DNA of 39,157 nt, from contig SVKE01000008.1 in assembly GCA_015068615.1 (NCBI GenBank), positions 1 to 39,157 on the forward strand, written 5' to 3'. The notes below the pieces were generated by a model. It was not told the origin of the DNA and made no database searches. It saw only the letters and a list, made by a program, of their open reading frames with translations. Below, piece by piece: positions 5,822 through 11,240 of this stretch (position 1 is the first letter of the stretch; the number at the start of each line of letters is the position of its first letter). Position numbers and translations under genes: made by a program. The stretch comes from Oscillospiraceae bacterium. GTDB lineage: Bacteria > Bacillota > Clostridia > UBA1381 > UBA9506.

Positions 5822-7057
5822 CTATCGACTCAGGCAGAATTGCTTTCCTGGCAGAGCCTGCACCAGCCCCTTCATCTCCAGAGTGGTCAGTGCTGCAGAA
5901 AGCGTGGCCGGCGCAAGCCCGCTGGTGGTCAGCTGATCAATGTGTACCGGCACTTCAGAAAGAAGGGCGTACACAGCGTCCTCCTCCTTTGTCAGCCCCT
6001 CCGGTGCCTTGCGCGCCACAGCTTTTGGAAATACAGCATTTTTTTGCGCTGTCTTTTTATCTTTAGATTTTTTAATTTCCCTTTTCTCCGGGATTTCCGG
6101 CGTCCATGCCTCCACCTGTCCGGAAGAAGCCGGCCTGTTCTTTTCCATTACATGACCATAGAGGCCTTCGTAATGTTGAATGATATCCCGCGGTCCCAGC
6201 ACCGGAAAGGCGCCGTCTGCCAGCAATTGATTAGAGCCGACACTGCTGGCGCTGGTGATGTCGGCCGGAATGGCAAACACGTCCTTGCCCTCATCTAACG
6301 CTCGCCGTGCGGTTATGAGTGCACCGCTTACCTCCGGCGCCTCTACCACAATGCTTCCGTGCGAAAGACCGCTGATGATGCGATTTCTGATAGGAAAATG
6401 CTGTGGCAAAGAGGGCGTCCCGGGTGGGTACTCAGAGAGCACCATGCCGTTTTTGATAATTTCACGCATCAGTCCTGCGTGAGAAGGCGGCGAGGGACGG
6501 TCAACCCCACCGGCAAGCACCGCAACGGTTTTTCCTCCGCCGCGAATCGCACCCCTGTGCGCTGCTCCGTCAATGCCAAGGGCCATACCGCTGACAACTG
6601 TAATACCCTGCTCCGCCAAAATAGCAGAAAGCTTTTCTGCATTGGAAAGCCCATACCTTGAAGCCTTACGCGTGCCGACAACAGCAAGGGTCAAATGCTC
6701 ATTCAGGTTTATCCTTTCCGCGTATTTGGCATATAATACATATGGTGGGTCAGGCAGCTTAAGCAGCAGCTTGGGATACAGCTCATGCTCTTGCGTCAGT
6801 ATTTTAATCTGCTTGTCCCGACACGCATTATACACTGCCTCCGCCTTTTTTAACTCCTTATCCGAAAGAGCGGCAATGTCCGCCCGTCTAAAGACAGGAC
6901 GATCCCCTATTCTCCGGCTAAGAGCCGCCTCTATGGAGGACTTATCTGCCCGATAGATTGCCTCGGGTGTTTCAAAATAATTCAGGAGCTCGTGAATCTT
7001 TCCGGCAGTCATACCCCTCTTCAAGGACAGCCAGAGCCAGTAACGCAATTTCGCCAC
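5822..7057 (-). CDS. dprA: DNA-processing protein DprA (RecA loader)
   Basis: DprA binds single-stranded DNA and loads RecA during natural transformation and recombination. The 411-residue protein has an N-terminal SAM/HhH-like region (1-90), the Rossmann DNA-binding core (VVGTRKAS, VVSGMALGIDGAAHRGA, PIRNRIISGLS, GSNQLLADGAFPV) and a basic linker rich in Lys. A C-terminal winged helix covers about 355-411. The start is GTG 7057; an ATG eight bases further upstream has a better-spaced AAGGAAGG but is out of frame. A TATAAT (7081-7086, minus) has no good -35 box. Whether the organism is competent cannot be told; DprA is also widespread in non-competent species. Confidence 0.95.
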   Translation of the reverse strand: MAKLRYWLWLSLKRGMTAGKIHELLNYFETPEAIYRADKSSIEAALSRRIGDRPVFRRADIAALSDKELKKAEAVYNACRDKQIKILTQEHELYPKLLLKLPDPPYVLYAKYAERINLNEHLTLAVVGTRKASRYGLSNAEKLSAILAEQGITVVSGMALGIDGAAHRGAIRGGGKTVAVLAGGVDRPSPPSHAGLMREIIKNGMVLSEYPPGTPSLPQHFPIRNRIISGLSHGSIVVEAPEVSGALITARRALDEGKDVFAIPADITSASSVGSNQLLADGAFPVLGPRDIIQHYEGLYGHVMEKNRPASSGQVEAWTPEIPEKREIKKSKDKKTAQKNAVFPKAVARKAPEGLTKEEDAVYALLSEVPVHIDQLTTSGLAPATLSAALTTLEMKGLVQALPGKQFCLSR

Positions 7058-7255: not shown

Positions 7256-7470
7256 GCGGAGATTCTTCCGCAATAGTATTAGCGTTCAGCGCGCAAGCGT
7301 TGTCGGCCGGGTCCTGCGCAATCTGAGCCTGTGAACCTCGTCAGGTGGGGAACCAAGCAGCGATAAGCGGTGTCTTGGATGTGATGCAGGATCACCCGGT
7401 GTGAAAACACAAAAGGATGGCTAAATGGCCGAAATCCTTATGATAAATCCGCCCATGGTGCGGGTTTTTT
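7256..7470 (+). ncRNA. ffs: Signal recognition particle RNA (SRP RNA / scRNA)
   Basis: The S-domain is unmistakable: GGGTCCTGCGCAA, TGAACC, then GTCAGGTGGGGAACCAAGC and AGCGATAAG, closed by GCAGGATCACCCGG pairing back. This RNA binds Ffh and targets nascent membrane proteins to FtsY and SecYEG. The apical GGAA tetraloop is closed by GG/CC instead of the common CC/GG, a compensatory swap that preserves pairing. A 5' arm of about 50 nt is shorter than the full Bacillus Alu domain. The RNA ends at a CCGC/GCGG hairpin and TTTTTT (7465-7470). Its position just before dnaX matches Bacillus. The exact ends are inferred from promoter and terminator. Confidence 0.9.
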
Positions 7471-7539: not shown

Positions 7540-9183
7540 TTGGCATATCAGGCCCTATACAGAACATGGCGACCCATGGTTTTTGACGATGTGGCAGGCC
7601 AGGAGCATATCACCCGCACCCTGCGCAACGAAATTAAAACGGATAGTCTGGCGCATGCCTATCTTTTTTGCGGTACACGCGGCACAGGAAAAACCTCCAC
7701 AGCCAAAATTCTGGCTCGGGCAGTCAACTGTGAGCACCCTGTGGACGGGAATCCCTGCAACGAATGTGAAATTTGCCGCGGCATTTTGGACGACAGCATT
7801 TTGGATGTTGTGGAAATGGATGGTGCCTCCCGCAATAAGGTGGAAAATATTCGTGAAATTATTGATGATGTGGCTTTTCTGCCCACCCGGGCAAGAAAAA
7901 AGGTATATATCATTGATGAGGTACACATGGTCACCACACAAGCCTTCAATGCGCTTTTAAAAACGCTGGAGGAGCCGCCGGCACATGTGCTTTTCATTCT
8001 GGCCACCACCGAGCTCAACAAAATCCCGCCCACCGTTTTGTCCCGTTGCCAGCGGTTCGACTTTAAAAGAATCACGCCCGATGCCATCACAGATCGTCTT
8101 TCTGAGATCGTAACCGCCTCCGGACGGGAGGTGAGCCGCGAAGCACTGCGCCTTGTGGCAGAGCTGGGTGATGGCTCCATGCGAGACTCCTTGAGCATTT
8201 TGGAACAGGCTCTTGGCTATACTGAGCAGGCCATCAGCTATGATGATCTGTTAAAGATTATCGGCATTACCGATTATGATGCGTTGTTTACCATTTGCGA
8301 GGCCTTTTGCCGCCGTGACGGCGGAGCGGCCCTGATGGTTTTAGACGAAATTATTGAAAGCGGCAAAGAGCCCGAGGTGTTTGTGGATCGGTTGAGCCGC
8401 TTTCTGCGCGACATTTTGGTGGTGAAGCTGACCCGGGATCCCCGGCAGATTTTAAACACCTCCGAAGAGCAGCTACAGCGCATGCAACAGCTGGCTGCGG
8501 CCTTTACCCGTGAAAAGCTGATTTTTGCCTTAAAAGTAATTAACGAAGCCACAGCAAACGCCAAGGGCTCCGGTTATGGCAGAACCATATATGAGCTGGC
8601 CTTAATCAAGCTGTGTGAGCCGTCATACGACAGCTCCTTTGAAGCGCTGGCAACCCGTGTGGCCGACCTGGAAAAGCGACTGGCAGAGGGAGCGCCCGTC
8701 GCAATGACAACACCGGCCGAAGCGGAGGACCTACCCCCCTGGGAGGAGCCGGTCAGTACGCCCGAGGTGCCGCAAGAGACGCCGGCAAAAGAGACGGAGA
8801 CTTCTGCCGCAGCCCCGAAGGAAGAAAAAACTCCCCCGGCAGGCGACGTTCCGGAGGTGGTTGTCCGTTGGAACGAGGTGAAGGATTATATCCGCGCTCA
8901 CGGCGGTGCACCTGTGTTGCCTCATATCAACCGTGCCACGCCTATGATTCTGCGAAAAAAGCTTTCACTTGTCTTTTCTAAAGACGCCGCGATGAATAAA
9001 ACCGTGGTAGGCCGGGCCGGAAATCTGGAGTTGATTCAGCTGGCCGCCAAGGCTGTTACCGGTGAGGATTGGGAGGTGCAGTGCCTGTCTGAAAAAGAGG
9101 CCGGCATTTCCTCCGGTGAGGAGGACTCCTTAAATCGCTTAATTGAGCTCAGCCGTGAGCACCAGGAAATCGAAATTCTTTAA
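7540..9183 (+). CDS. dnaX: DNA polymerase III subunit gamma/tau
   Basis: ATPase of the clamp-loader complex that opens the beta clamp on primed DNA and tethers polymerase cores. The 547 residues hold Walker A GTRGTGKT (45-52), a zinc module with Cys64/73/76/79, Walker B DEVHM (126-130), the LKTLEEPP segment and sensor SRC. An acidic Pro/Glu-rich linker near 390-440 precedes a tau-type C-terminal domain. I start it at TTG 7540 (MAYQALYRTWRP, the family N-terminus), 8 nt after AGGAGG; the ORF-track GTG at 7531 overlaps that ribosome site. No obvious A-tract for gamma frameshifting was noticed. ybaB follows, as usual. Confidence 0.97.
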   Translation: MAYQALYRTWRPMVFDDVAGQEHITRTLRNEIKTDSLAHAYLFCGTRGTGKTSTAKILARAVNCEHPVDGNPCNECEICRGILDDSILDVVEMDGASRNKVENIREIIDDVAFLPTRARKKVYIIDEVHMVTTQAFNALLKTLEEPPAHVLFILATTELNKIPPTVLSRCQRFDFKRITPDAITDRLSEIVTASGREVSREALRLVAELGDGSMRDSLSILEQALGYTEQAISYDDLLKIIGITDYDALFTICEAFCRRDGGAALMVLDEIIESGKEPEVFVDRLSRFLRDILVVKLTRDPRQILNTSEEQLQRMQQLAAAFTREKLIFALKVINEATANAKGSGYGRTIYELALIKLCEPSYDSSFEALATRVADLEKRLAEGAPVAMTTPAEAEDLPPWEEPVSTPEVPQETPAKETETSAAAPKEEKTPPAGDVPEVVVRWNEVKDYIRAHGGAPVLPHINRATPMILRKKLSLVFSKDAAMNKTVVGRAGNLELIQLAAKAVTGEDWEVQCLSEKEAGISSGEEDSLNRLIELSREHQEIEIL

Positions 9184-9205
9184 GCTATGGAAAGCTATAT
9201 ACAAT

Positions 9206-9270
9206 ATACGCCTTATCCGCCCATGATAAGTCTTGCGTATTTATTTCATACTATGTGGGCAGAAAGGCTA
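9206..9270 (+). promoter_or_regulatory. Candidate pseudoknot leader RNA of ybaB (twin of the darA leader)
   Basis: Stem ATACGC/GCGTAT (9206-9211 with 9235-9240) and stem CTTATC/GATAAG (9212-9217 with 9225-9230) enclose loop CGCCCAT, with a 3' bulge TCTT. After a 14-nt linker comes GTGGGCAGAAAGGCTA (9255-9270). Loop GCCCAT can pair with GTGGGC (six pairs, one G-U). The darA leader has the same layout and the identical 16-mer. I know no named class that fits. Confidence 0.5.
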
Positions 9271-9279
9271 TGAAGATAA

Positions 9280-9627
9280 ATGGCAAAACCCAATAAATTT
9301 ACAGGCGGTGGTGTCAACCAGAACAAGGCCGCCATGATGCAACGCGTACAGCAAATGCAGGAGGAAATGGAGCGCGTGCAGAACGAAATCAGCGAATCCA
9401 CCGTGGAGGCCACCGCCGGCGGCGGTGCCGTTACGGTTGTGATGAAGGGAAACCGCGACCTCGTTTCTGTCAGCCTAAAGCCTGAAATTGTAGACCCGGA
9501 TGATATTGAAATGCTGGAGGATTTAATTGTGGCCGCAGTGAACGAGGCCGGTAAAAAAGCCTCCGATATGATGGAGGAAGGTATGGCCGGCATCACCGGC
9601 GGACTGAATCTGCCGGGATTGTTTTAA
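9280..9627 (+). CDS. YbaB/EbfC family nucleoid-associated protein
   Basis: A small DNA-binding protein (115 residues) that forms a tweezer-like dimer, with a proposed role in nucleoid organisation and recombination or replication. The family signature is clear: a Met/Gln-rich helix (MMQRVQQMQEEMERVQ) then VEATAGGGAVTVVMKG and SLKPEIVDPDDIEMLEDLIVAAVNEA. Length is typical for the family (about 105-115). It follows dnaX by about 96 nt, and that gap contains the hairpin leader. The usual next gene, recR, is replaced by a glycosyltransferase. The ribosome site is weak (AAAGG far upstream, GAAG nearer), which fits translational control by the leader. Confidence 0.95.
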   Translation: MAKPNKFTGGGVNQNKAAMMQRVQQMQEEMERVQNEISESTVEATAGGGAVTVVMKGNRDLVSVSLKPEIVDPDDIEMLEDLIVAAVNEAGKKASDMMEEGMAGITGGLNLPGLF

Positions 9628-9642
9628 AACGGAGGTGTATCC

Positions 9643-10794
9643 ATGAAGATACTGTTTCTATCCGTTCCCACAGGACAAGGACATCATCAAGCCGCAAAGG
9701 CCGTGCTGGAATACTTTCAGCAGGACGATTCTGTGGAATGCCGTTTTTTGGATGTGGTGGATAATACCAGCTCATTTTTAGCCGATTCTCTGCAAAAGGG
9801 CTATCTGATTTCCACAACGGTAGCACCCAAGATGTATGGCACCTTTTATGATATGGCCGACCGACGGAATTATTCCAAATCCTCGAGTCTGGGCAAATTT
9901 GTAAAATCTATCCTAAATAAGAAGCTCTCAAAATATATTGAAATATATGACCCAGATATCATCGTAACGACACACATCTTCTCTGCTCTTGCCTTGACCT
10001 ATCTGCGCAAGAAGCAGGCAATTCGGGCCAAAACCATTGCCATTATCACAGATTTCACCATTCACCCCTACTGGGAGGATACGAAGCTGGATTATTATAT
10101 CACCGCCTCAGAGCTTTTGGGCTTTCAGGCGATGAAAAAGGGTCACGAGCCAGAAAAGGTAAAGCCCTTCGGCATTCCGATTCGCCCGCATTTTGCGCAC
10201 AAGCTGTCTAAGGAGGAGGCCCGCAAGCACCTAAAGCTTGAGAATCGCTTCACCATTCTGCTGATGATGGGATCCATGGGATATGGCAGCGACACGCTGG
10301 ACACCGTGCGTAATTTAGATCGCATGGAGGAAGATTTTCAGCTGGTCACCGTCTGCGGTACCAACAAGCGCTTAAAGGCGCGAATCGACCGAATGACCAA
10401 GCATAAAACCATTATCAATTACGGATATTCAAATGAGGTTGCAACATTGATGGACGCGGCCGACTGTATCATCACCAAGCCCGGCGGCCTCTCCACCTCT
10501 GAGGCGCTGGCCAAGGAGCTCCCCATCATTATGATGGATCCGATTCCCGGTCAGGAGGACAGAAACAAGGAGTTTATGTTAAACAATGGCATTGCCCTTT
10601 CTGTCAGCGATACCTTCCCGGTAACAGAGGCCGTATATCAGCTGATGCATTACGATTTTAAGGTTGAATCGCTGCGACGTAACATGAAAAACTTTTCCAA
10701 GCCAAATGCAGCCGCAGCTCTGGGTGAATTTATGCTGACGCTTTGCCAAAAGCCTGGTAAGGCGGCAGAGACACAACTTAAAGAAGCGCAGTAA
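9643..10794 (+). CDS. UgtP/MGDG-synthase-like diacylglycerol glycosyltransferase
   Basis: A GT28 family, GT-B fold glycosyltransferase of 383 residues. The N-terminal MGDG-synthase domain opens with PTGQGHHQAAKAV (the family GHG-H-AA motif). The C-terminal nucleotide-sugar site reads TKPGGLSTSEALAKELPIIM then DPIPGQEDRN. Relatives transfer glucose or galactose from a UDP-sugar to diacylglycerol, making membrane glycolipids at the inner leaflet. There is no signal peptide, as expected for a peripheral cytosolic enzyme. CGGAGG lies 8 nt before ATG, and the gap to ybaB is only 15 nt, so the two are co-transcribed. The acceptor and sugar are not determined by sequence. Confidence 0.85.
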   Translation: MKILFLSVPTGQGHHQAAKAVLEYFQQDDSVECRFLDVVDNTSSFLADSLQKGYLISTTVAPKMYGTFYDMADRRNYSKSSSLGKFVKSILNKKLSKYIEIYDPDIIVTTHIFSALALTYLRKKQAIRAKTIAIITDFTIHPYWEDTKLDYYITASELLGFQAMKKGHEPEKVKPFGIPIRPHFAHKLSKEEARKHLKLENRFTILLMMGSMGYGSDTLDTVRNLDRMEEDFQLVTVCGTNKRLKARIDRMTKHKTIINYGYSNEVATLMDAADCIITKPGGLSTSEALAKELPIIMMDPIPGQEDRNKEFMLNNGIALSVSDTFPVTEAVYQLMHYDFKVESLRRNMKNFSKPNAAAALGEFMLTLCQKPGKAAETQLKEAQ

Positions 10795-10833
10795 AGAGCC
10801 ATATATGCTGCTTTTTACTGGCAACAAGCAGCA

Positions 10834-10897
10834 ATGCGCACCACCGGCCCACAGTGGGGCTGCGCATGCTATAATAAATGAGTGGGCAGAAAGGCTA
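10834..10897 (+). promoter_or_regulatory. Candidate pseudoknot leader RNA of darA (twin of the ybaB leader)
   Basis: Stem ATGCGCA/TGCGCAT (10834-10840 with 10861-10867) and CCAC/GTGG (10841-10844 with 10854-10857) enclose loop CGGCCCACA, with a 3' bulge GGC. A 14-nt linker then leads to GTGGGCAGAAAGGCTA (10882-10897), identical to the ybaB copy. Loop GCCCAC pairs perfectly with GTGGGC. The ribosome site AAGGGG begins right at its 3' edge, so folding could control translation. A TATAAT (10870-10875) in the linker is an alternative reading as a promoter, but it has no good -35. Confidence 0.5.
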
Positions 10898-10907
10898 AGG
10901 GGATTCT

Positions 10908-11240
10908 ATGAAGCTAGTATTTGCAATTGTGAACAACGAAGACGGCAATCAGGTTATGCGTGAGCTGAATAAGGCCGGATTTTCCGTTACAAAAATGGCT
11001 TCCACCGGAGGCTTTCTCCGGGCGGGCAACACCACGCTTTTGGTCGGTACAGAGGAGAAAGACGTGCAGAGTGCCATGGACATCATTGCTAAACACAGCA
11101 TGAAGAGAAAGCAGATTATGTTCACACCCGAGCCCTTTATCGGCGCCGCCGGAAACGACTATGCTGCCTATCCGGAGGAAGTTGAGGTAGGCGGTGCAAC
11201 CATCTTCGTAGTGGATGTGGAGCGCTTTGAAAAGGTATGA
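10908..11240 (+). CDS. darA: Cyclic-di-AMP receptor DarA/PstA (PII-like)
   Basis: A PII-like trimeric protein that binds cyclic di-AMP (YaaQ/PstA/DarA family). The 110 residues follow the family throughout: MKLVFAIVNNEDGNQVMREL, then the ligand-binding loop start ATSTGGFLR-like ASTGGFLRAGNTTLLVG, and a C-terminal GGATIFVVDVERF strand. Its downstream target is not firmly established. AAGGGG precedes ATG by 6 nt. It starts the darA-holB-ricT gene run known from Bacillus, but tmk, usually upstream, is absent here and a glycosyltransferase precedes it. The 3' end overlaps holB, implying translational coupling. Confidence 0.95.
   Translation: MKLVFAIVNNEDGNQVMRELNKAGFSVTKMASTGGFLRAGNTTLLVGTEEKDVQSAMDIIAKHSMKRKQIMFTPEPFIGAAGNDYAAYPEEVEVGGATIFVVDVERFEKV

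Follow-up and report, generated by a model that had tools for sequence, protein, structure and literature searches.

A multi-copy structured leader RNA of Clostridia that probably takes over translation initiation of the downstream gene

Introduction

Pseudoknots in bacterial mRNA leaders can act directly on ribosome recruitment. In Escherichia coli tisB, a 5′ leader pseudoknot is needed for 30S and S1 binding and for translation, with the ribosome binding site (RBS) held in structure (PMC7708055). Among the short repeats found near gene starts, the TAACTGA repeats of Beggiatoaceae have been suggested to have a role in translation (PMC4679880). Here we describe an RNA element that recalls both kinds of system, starting from two gene leaders in a 39,157-nt contig of an Oscillospiraceae bacterium (hereafter the window). 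An earlier note on this DNA had pointed out that the leaders of ybaB and darA share a 16-mer and a hairpin, and had proposed a small pseudoknot regulatory RNA joining a nucleoid protein and a c-di-AMP receptor. We find that the two leaders belong to a multi-copy structured RNA of Clostridia, and we consider it probable (roughly 0.6) that this RNA takes charge of translation initiation on the gene that follows it.

Results

Two copies of the element in the window

The 16-mer GTGGGCAGAAAGGCTA occurs exactly at 9255-9270 and 10882-10897 of the window sequence. Allowing up to three mismatches gives three matches in the window against 0.29 expected, the third being inside dnaX and lacking the hairpin. 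Both leaders carry, as described in the earlier note, the same 16-mer and the same two-part hairpin with a 3′ bulge, and in both the hairpin loop (GCCCAT or GCCCAC) can pair with the GTGGGC of the 16-mer, with the sixth pair changing from U-G to C-G. The 14-nt linker that the note singled out is present in both window copies, but its length varies in other copies and the agreement is a coincidence.

The first copy (9205..9279, + strand) reaches the base before the ybaB ATG at 9280. Its hairpin (9206..9240, +) consists of P1 (9206-9211/9235-9240, +), P2 (9212-9217/9225-9230, +) and a 3′ bulge (9231-9234, +), and is supported by the sequence, by P2 covariation in 68 sequences and by a P1 permutation z of 9.1. 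The pseudoknot 5′ strand GCCCAT in the P2 loop (9219..9224, +) pairs with the 3′ strand GTGGGC (9255..9260, +), as indicated by sequence and covariation, with U-G as its sixth pair. Directly behind lies AGAAAGG (9261..9267, +), 12 nt 5′ of the ATG, which we propose as the Shine–Dalgarno sequence (SD) of the element on the basis of 16S-tail complementarity and a spacing survey. The gene itself (9280..9627, +) belongs to the YbaB/EbfC family (NCBIfam TIGR00103, E 3e-25). R1, a covariance model of the element, matches this copy at 9205-9274; in a search of its own genome the match scores 76 bits, with E 4e-23. As the ybaB copy is a seed sequence of R1, its independent support is the covariation in the alignment of 68 sequences.

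The second copy (10833..10907, +) likewise reaches the base before the darA ATG at 10908. R1 finds it at 10833-10901 with 38.6 bits (E 5.6e-10), and this copy is outside the model seed. Its hairpin (10834..10867, +), composed of P1 (10834-10840/10861-10867, +) and P2 (10841-10844/10854-10857, +), is supported by the sequence and by the orthologous leader of sister species G003, which has other, fully paired stems. The strand GCCCAC (10847..10852, +) pairs with GTGGGC (10882..10887, +), a pairing backed by the sequence and the G003 ortholog, and the sixth pair is C-G. AGAAAGG (10888..10894, +), 13 nt 5′ of the ATG, is again the proposed SD of the element by the same 16S-tail complementarity and spacing survey. 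A second and more conventional SD candidate, AAGGGG (10897..10902, +), adjoins the element 5 nt 5′ of the ATG, just as the note had stated. The downstream gene (10908..11240, +) matches the cyclic di-AMP receptor family (NCBIfam NF058593, E 1e-37) at 128.7 bits, slightly under the cut-off of 140. RNAfold, whose scope does not include pseudoknots, gives different nested folds for the two leaders. A TATAAT before GTGGGC in darA was considered as a promoter and rejected, being absent from other copies.

The helices covary strongly

Strong covariation was observed for P2, P1 and the pseudoknot. In an alignment of 68 sequences, P2 and the pseudoknot together are paired in 98.4% of cells, against 36-41% in slid controls, and show 47 double-change cells against 8.9 in shuffles (0/500 shuffles as high). 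The pseudoknot alone is paired in 99.3% of cells, with 12 double-change cells against 1.7 in shuffles (0/500), although these shuffle tests do not fully correct for relatedness. Permutation tests gave z 13.2 for the pseudoknot, 9.1 for P1 and 9.2 for P0, a closing helix of longer copies, compared with -1.4 for a control region; P2 was located by its own pairing in this test and so has no independent z. Within the copies of a single genome, G057, P1 reached z 1.9, without clear significance.

Compensated pseudoknot variants are also found outside the 68-copy alignment (GCCTAC/GTAGGC and GGCTCAC/GTGAGCC, and GCCTGT/GCAGGC in the genome of the window, G000), while the GCCC/GGGC core is near-invariant, an identity inflated by the seeding of R1 from pattern-selected copies. 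In the darA leader of G003 the pseudoknot reads GCCTGC/GCAGGC and an 11-bp P1/P2 stem has a different sequence: between the two species all three helices have been rewritten and pairing has been kept. That old copies change in this compensatory way speaks for a function at each of their genes. The H-type pseudoknot of the earlier note is therefore borne out by covariation, permutation and the G003 ortholog, as is its statement that pairing is preserved despite changes in the stems. A coding reading was rejected: long open runs occur in single copies (loci L138 and L035), but by eye the frame and stops differ between copies, so that there is no conserved peptide.

AGAAAGG as the probable Shine–Dalgarno sequence

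Immediately 3′ of the pseudoknot, every aligned copy has AGAAAGG. In two complete carrier genomes the 16S rRNA 3′ end reads CCTCCTTTCT, and its last seven bases (CCUUUCU) are the exact complement of this motif. An ORF start follows AGAAAGG in 181 of 187 parsed copies, nearly always within 18 nt and mostly at a spacing of 8-18 nt, so that the pseudoknot adjoins an SD-like sequence just before a start codon. Because of this complementarity, and given established knowledge of initiation, AGAAAGG is most likely the element's own SD. The rather long distance to the AUG in the long form described below (14 nt) and the conventional SD also present in some short copies, darA among them, count against a takeover of initiation.

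Many copies, varying between close relatives

The genome of the window (1.32 Mb in 74 contigs, ~90% complete) contains the 16-mer in five exact copies and in several near ones. About 15 copies of the element are credible, with R1 giving 14 at E <1e-5 and one more before a gene that resembles ribulose-phosphate epimerase by eye. All 15 credible copies are located 8-18 nt upstream of gene starts, and the downstream genes are varied, including efp, asd, pfkA, hisIE, mntP, pyrH and an indolepyruvate oxidoreductase gene. In other genomes dozens of unrelated genes are preceded by the element, and the proposed link between nucleoid protein and c-di-AMP receptor is not supported; nor is one specific to ybaB and darA, as most species of the genus have neither leader.

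The search for further copies in related genomes that the earlier note had suggested was productive, and the covariation check gave the strong result reported above. A paired-pattern search was positive in 20 of 41 relatives, while the reversed control pattern gave 0. R1 was positive in 19 of 20 genomes of the family, 61 of 95 of the order and 47 of 391 Clostridia genomes, and in an even phylum-wide sample 0 of 397 other genomes matched at E 1e-8. Scan matches in other phyla were low-scoring. Carriers include Ructibacterium gallinarum and many metagenome-assembled genomes labelled Oscillospiraceae or Clostridia. A first motif scan was too permissive (349 matches versus 275 on reversed sequence) and was replaced by the covariance model. 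Copy number differs sharply between close relatives, as expected of an interspersed repeat: G057 has at least 53 copies and its sister genomes 0-7, so that a single genus spans from no copies to 53 or more.

At the gathering score, Rfam 15 found in the window only the small bacterial SRP RNA (RF00169) at 7305-7404, upstream of dnaX and away from the element; a permissive Rfam scan of 9150-10960 gave matches at chance level only. For 15 long-form loci the Rfam matches were a T-box and a lysine riboswitch, both away from the element, and the earlier view that no Rfam class fits can stand. A text search of the open-access literature returned no earlier description of the element and no occurrence of its 14-mer, and the same literature on structured or mobile elements in the gap between SD and AUG yielded analogues only. 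With no match in Rfam or in the text search, the element appears to be an undescribed RNA class, carried by gut Clostridia.

A long form closed by an additional helix

The element exists as a short core form of ~70 nt, as in the window, and as a long, full form of ~200 nt. The latter consists of two hairpins, S1 and then S2, followed by the core as 3′ domain, with helix P0 closing the structure. S1 is a hairpin of the type AACGUGA-loop-UCACGUU and S2 a longer bulged hairpin. P0 is formed by an upstream AAUNNCCAU and by AUGGNNAUU, placed 3′ of the element's SD but before the AUG; the helix comprises at least 6 bp in 78 of 159 parsed copies, so that about half are of the long form. Its compensating variants include TATCCAT/ATGGATA, TTTCCAT/ATGGAAA, TCTCCAT/ATGGAGA and TCACCAT/ATGGTGA, and among the G057 copies alone it reaches z 6.5. 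S1 is prolonged into the variable 5′ flank by complementarity (z 7.7 within G057). S1 has an SD-like 4-mer in front of it in 53 of 64 copies, compared with 15 of 112 control windows, and some copies have a CCTCC in the S1-S2 linker that can pair with this upstream SD. Both forms are found within one genus (G008 and G001 long, G000 short), and the short forms in the window appear to be older or reduced versions of the long one.

Three further observations concern the long form. The upstream SD is often 6-9 nt before a GTG or TTG inside S1, making a short upstream ORF possible, though its frame and length are not conserved. The P0 3′ strand starts with AUG (GGCUAUGGNNAUU, e.g. in L282), which is in frame with the gene start in 85 of 187 parsed copies and would there give N-terminal extensions such as MDIIM or MEIYM. 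Finally, four long copies of G057, L273, L276 and L278 among them, have a ~60-nt GC-rich palindromic insert at the S1 apex, CCCGCCGGCGCAATAAATTGCGGGCGGG; they include the copies before recN and an argR-like gene, as if S1 hosted another module.

Empty sites between SD and AUG

Comparison of orthologous loci revealed empty sites at three genes, as for an interspersed repeat. At cmk, G057 reads GCAGAGGAGAAATAACGTG...ATGGATATTAACATGAATTAT with the long form in between, its sister G055 reads GTCAAGGAGAAATAATTATGGCATAC, and 15 other species of the genus have a plain SD-ATG without the element. At queC, too, G057 carries the long form; 13 further species of the genus have only the plain SD-ATG. At ybaB the long form of G014 (locus L035) is missing in G016 and G018, which read TTGGAGGAAA...ATG. 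Because of these empty sites, the reading of the long form as an insert in the SD-AUG gap is well supported by sequence comparison. Most ybaB and darA orthologs in the genus lack the element, and the short copies at ybaB, darA and efp are common to G000 and G003. Several element-less sister species (loci L331-L385) have instead a short GC-rich hairpin before ybaB and darA, e.g. GCCGCTTTGCGGCAGAATGGAGG, with CAGAATGGAGG or CAGAAATGGAG immediately behind it; this could be a simpler leader that is related or ancestral.

One copy is viral: an 18-kb IMG/VR contig (L386) carries a long copy with SD, S1, S2 and P0 before a gene (element 6899-6974, - strand), positioned as in the chromosomal cases. 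It was the only one of ten viral contigs with paired patterns to be convincing by the model, and plasmid and phage record collections gave no match to the element. No gene for a transposase, an integrase or a reverse transcriptase was seen near the copies examined. Proliferation, for which the copy bursts, the empty sites and the phage copy speak, is compatible with function at each gene. Ordinary transposition would hardly account for an element that always arrives in the SD-AUG gap and always in one orientation.

Several features had escaped the earlier note because they are invisible in a single window: the occurrence in many copies, the long form with S1, S2 and P0, the putative SD in AGAAAGG and the apparent insertion between SD and AUG.

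Discussion

A possible mode of action can be outlined from these features. The full form would spread by inserting precisely between a native SD and its AUG, leaving the native SD stranded upstream, in some genomes opposite a CCUCC of the element, so that initiation would have to use the SD that the element brings along. In the core, the P1/P2 loop pairs with its 3′ strand as an H-type pseudoknot, and the AGAAAGG directly behind would serve as SD. The pseudoknot may keep this SD single-stranded beside a compact fold able to recruit or hold the 30S subunit; in the long form, AGAAAGG would lie in a single-stranded stretch between pseudoknot and P0, and P0 may throttle access to the start region.

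Other readings of the same data have to be weighed against this one. The element could be where one trans-acting protein, ribosomal protein S1 or a specialised RNA-binding regulator for instance, binds to coordinate many genes as a regulon. The uniform position at the RBS, the invariant AGAAAGG, the near-invariant GCCC/GGGC core and the structure kept in old copies would all suit such a site, and the tisB pseudoknot does bind S1 and the 30S subunit, as required for standby translation (PMC7708055). A stable regulon, however, would not be expected to have its element at an ortholog in only some species of a genus, and we regard this reading as unlikely, while noting that it is not exclusive of a takeover of initiation. 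A conventional cis-regulatory switch, in which the pseudoknot binds a metabolite or ion and P0 or a GCCUU/AAGGC helix hides the SD in the other state, seems a shade less likely still. It is consistent with a compact pseudoknot beside the SD, an arrangement known from the translational riboswitches for preQ1 and SAM/SAH (PMC11625349), and GCCUU-AAGGC is pairable in 91% of cells, allowing a nested SD-masking fold; yet we rejected this helix as a candidate since its covariation does not exceed that of shuffles. Moreover, the target genes are functionally unrelated and differ between genomes instead of belonging to one pathway, the 53 or more copies of G057 far exceed the usual number for a riboswitch, and the mostly variable linkers, bulge and loops leave little room for a conserved pocket.

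The empty sites in sister species, the copy burst in G057, the copy in a viral contig and the variable apical S1 insert in four copies would also be expected of a purely selfish interspersed repeat, whose fold has no regulatory role but aids mobility or keeps damage to the host gene low. Against this stand the old short copies, which keep their pairing by compensatory change at the same locus and so point to selection at each gene, and the position of the copies found, at gene starts and in sense orientation; we rate this reading as improbable, marginally more so than a riboswitch. The location of long copies between native SD and AUG could also mean that the RNA is spliced out, or that ribosomes skip over its fold and still initiate at the AUG from the native SD, and the match of the S1 arm to the 5′ flank is reminiscent of intron guide pairing. 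This we consider very improbable: no Rfam intron family, group I or group II, matched in the scans of the window and the 15 long-form loci, known self-splicing introns are larger than ~200 nt, S1, S2 and P0 are absent from the short forms, and an invariant SD-like AGAAAGG at near-constant spacing would be pointless.

We return to a structured RNA that takes over translation initiation as the preferred reading. A bolder version, for which we would give somewhat less than even odds, is that of a mobile RNA translation-initiation module that inserts between SD and AUG in chromosomes and phages, cuts off the native ribosome site in favour of its own pseudoknot-borne one and so places dozens of housekeeping genes under one RNA switch. 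No interspersed RNA described so far is known to target the translation start itself. If the reading is right, bacteria have a class of interspersed RNA aimed at the translation start, by which the translation of many essential genes can be rewired at once, and the element would be a new case of domesticated or selfish RNA as well as a candidate portable, regulated ribosome site. It would also raise the question of which machinery places a ~200-nt element into an SD-AUG gap of a few bases, always in one orientation.

Comparison with known systems

By analogy, the element resembles both the pseudoknot translational riboswitches and the tisB standby pseudoknot without apparent membership in either. 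With tisB it shares a pseudoknot in a leader, but tisB is a single locus whose pseudoknot is ~100 nt from the RBS and has no sequence in common with the element (PMC7708055), whereas the pseudoknot described here adjoins the SD and occurs in many interspersed copies. A small H-type pseudoknot adjoining the SD just before the start codon is also the arrangement of the preQ1 and SAM/SAH riboswitches (PMC11625349, PMC10516623); unlike these, the element has no Rfam match, precedes diverse genes instead of those of one pathway, reaches tens of copies per genome and has a long form with P0, S1 and S2.

In its spread the element resembles interspersed repeats (PMC3049150, PMC11109978). With the TAACTGA repeats of Beggiatoaceae, a multi-copy motif found within a few nucleotides of start codons in front of functionally unrelated genes, it has only this position in common; those are short heptamer direct repeats in another phylum, with no covarying structured RNA and no insertion between SD and AUG shown (PMC4679880). 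BOX, RUP and MITEs (PMC3049150, PMC6382973), and likewise the mobile or repeat candidates of a 50-genome survey of non-coding RNA (PMC11109978), are similarly non-coding, multi-copy, structured and variable between close relatives. Whereas these need no fixed place or orientation, the element described here lies in the SD-AUG gap, in sense orientation, and apparently brings an SD of its own.
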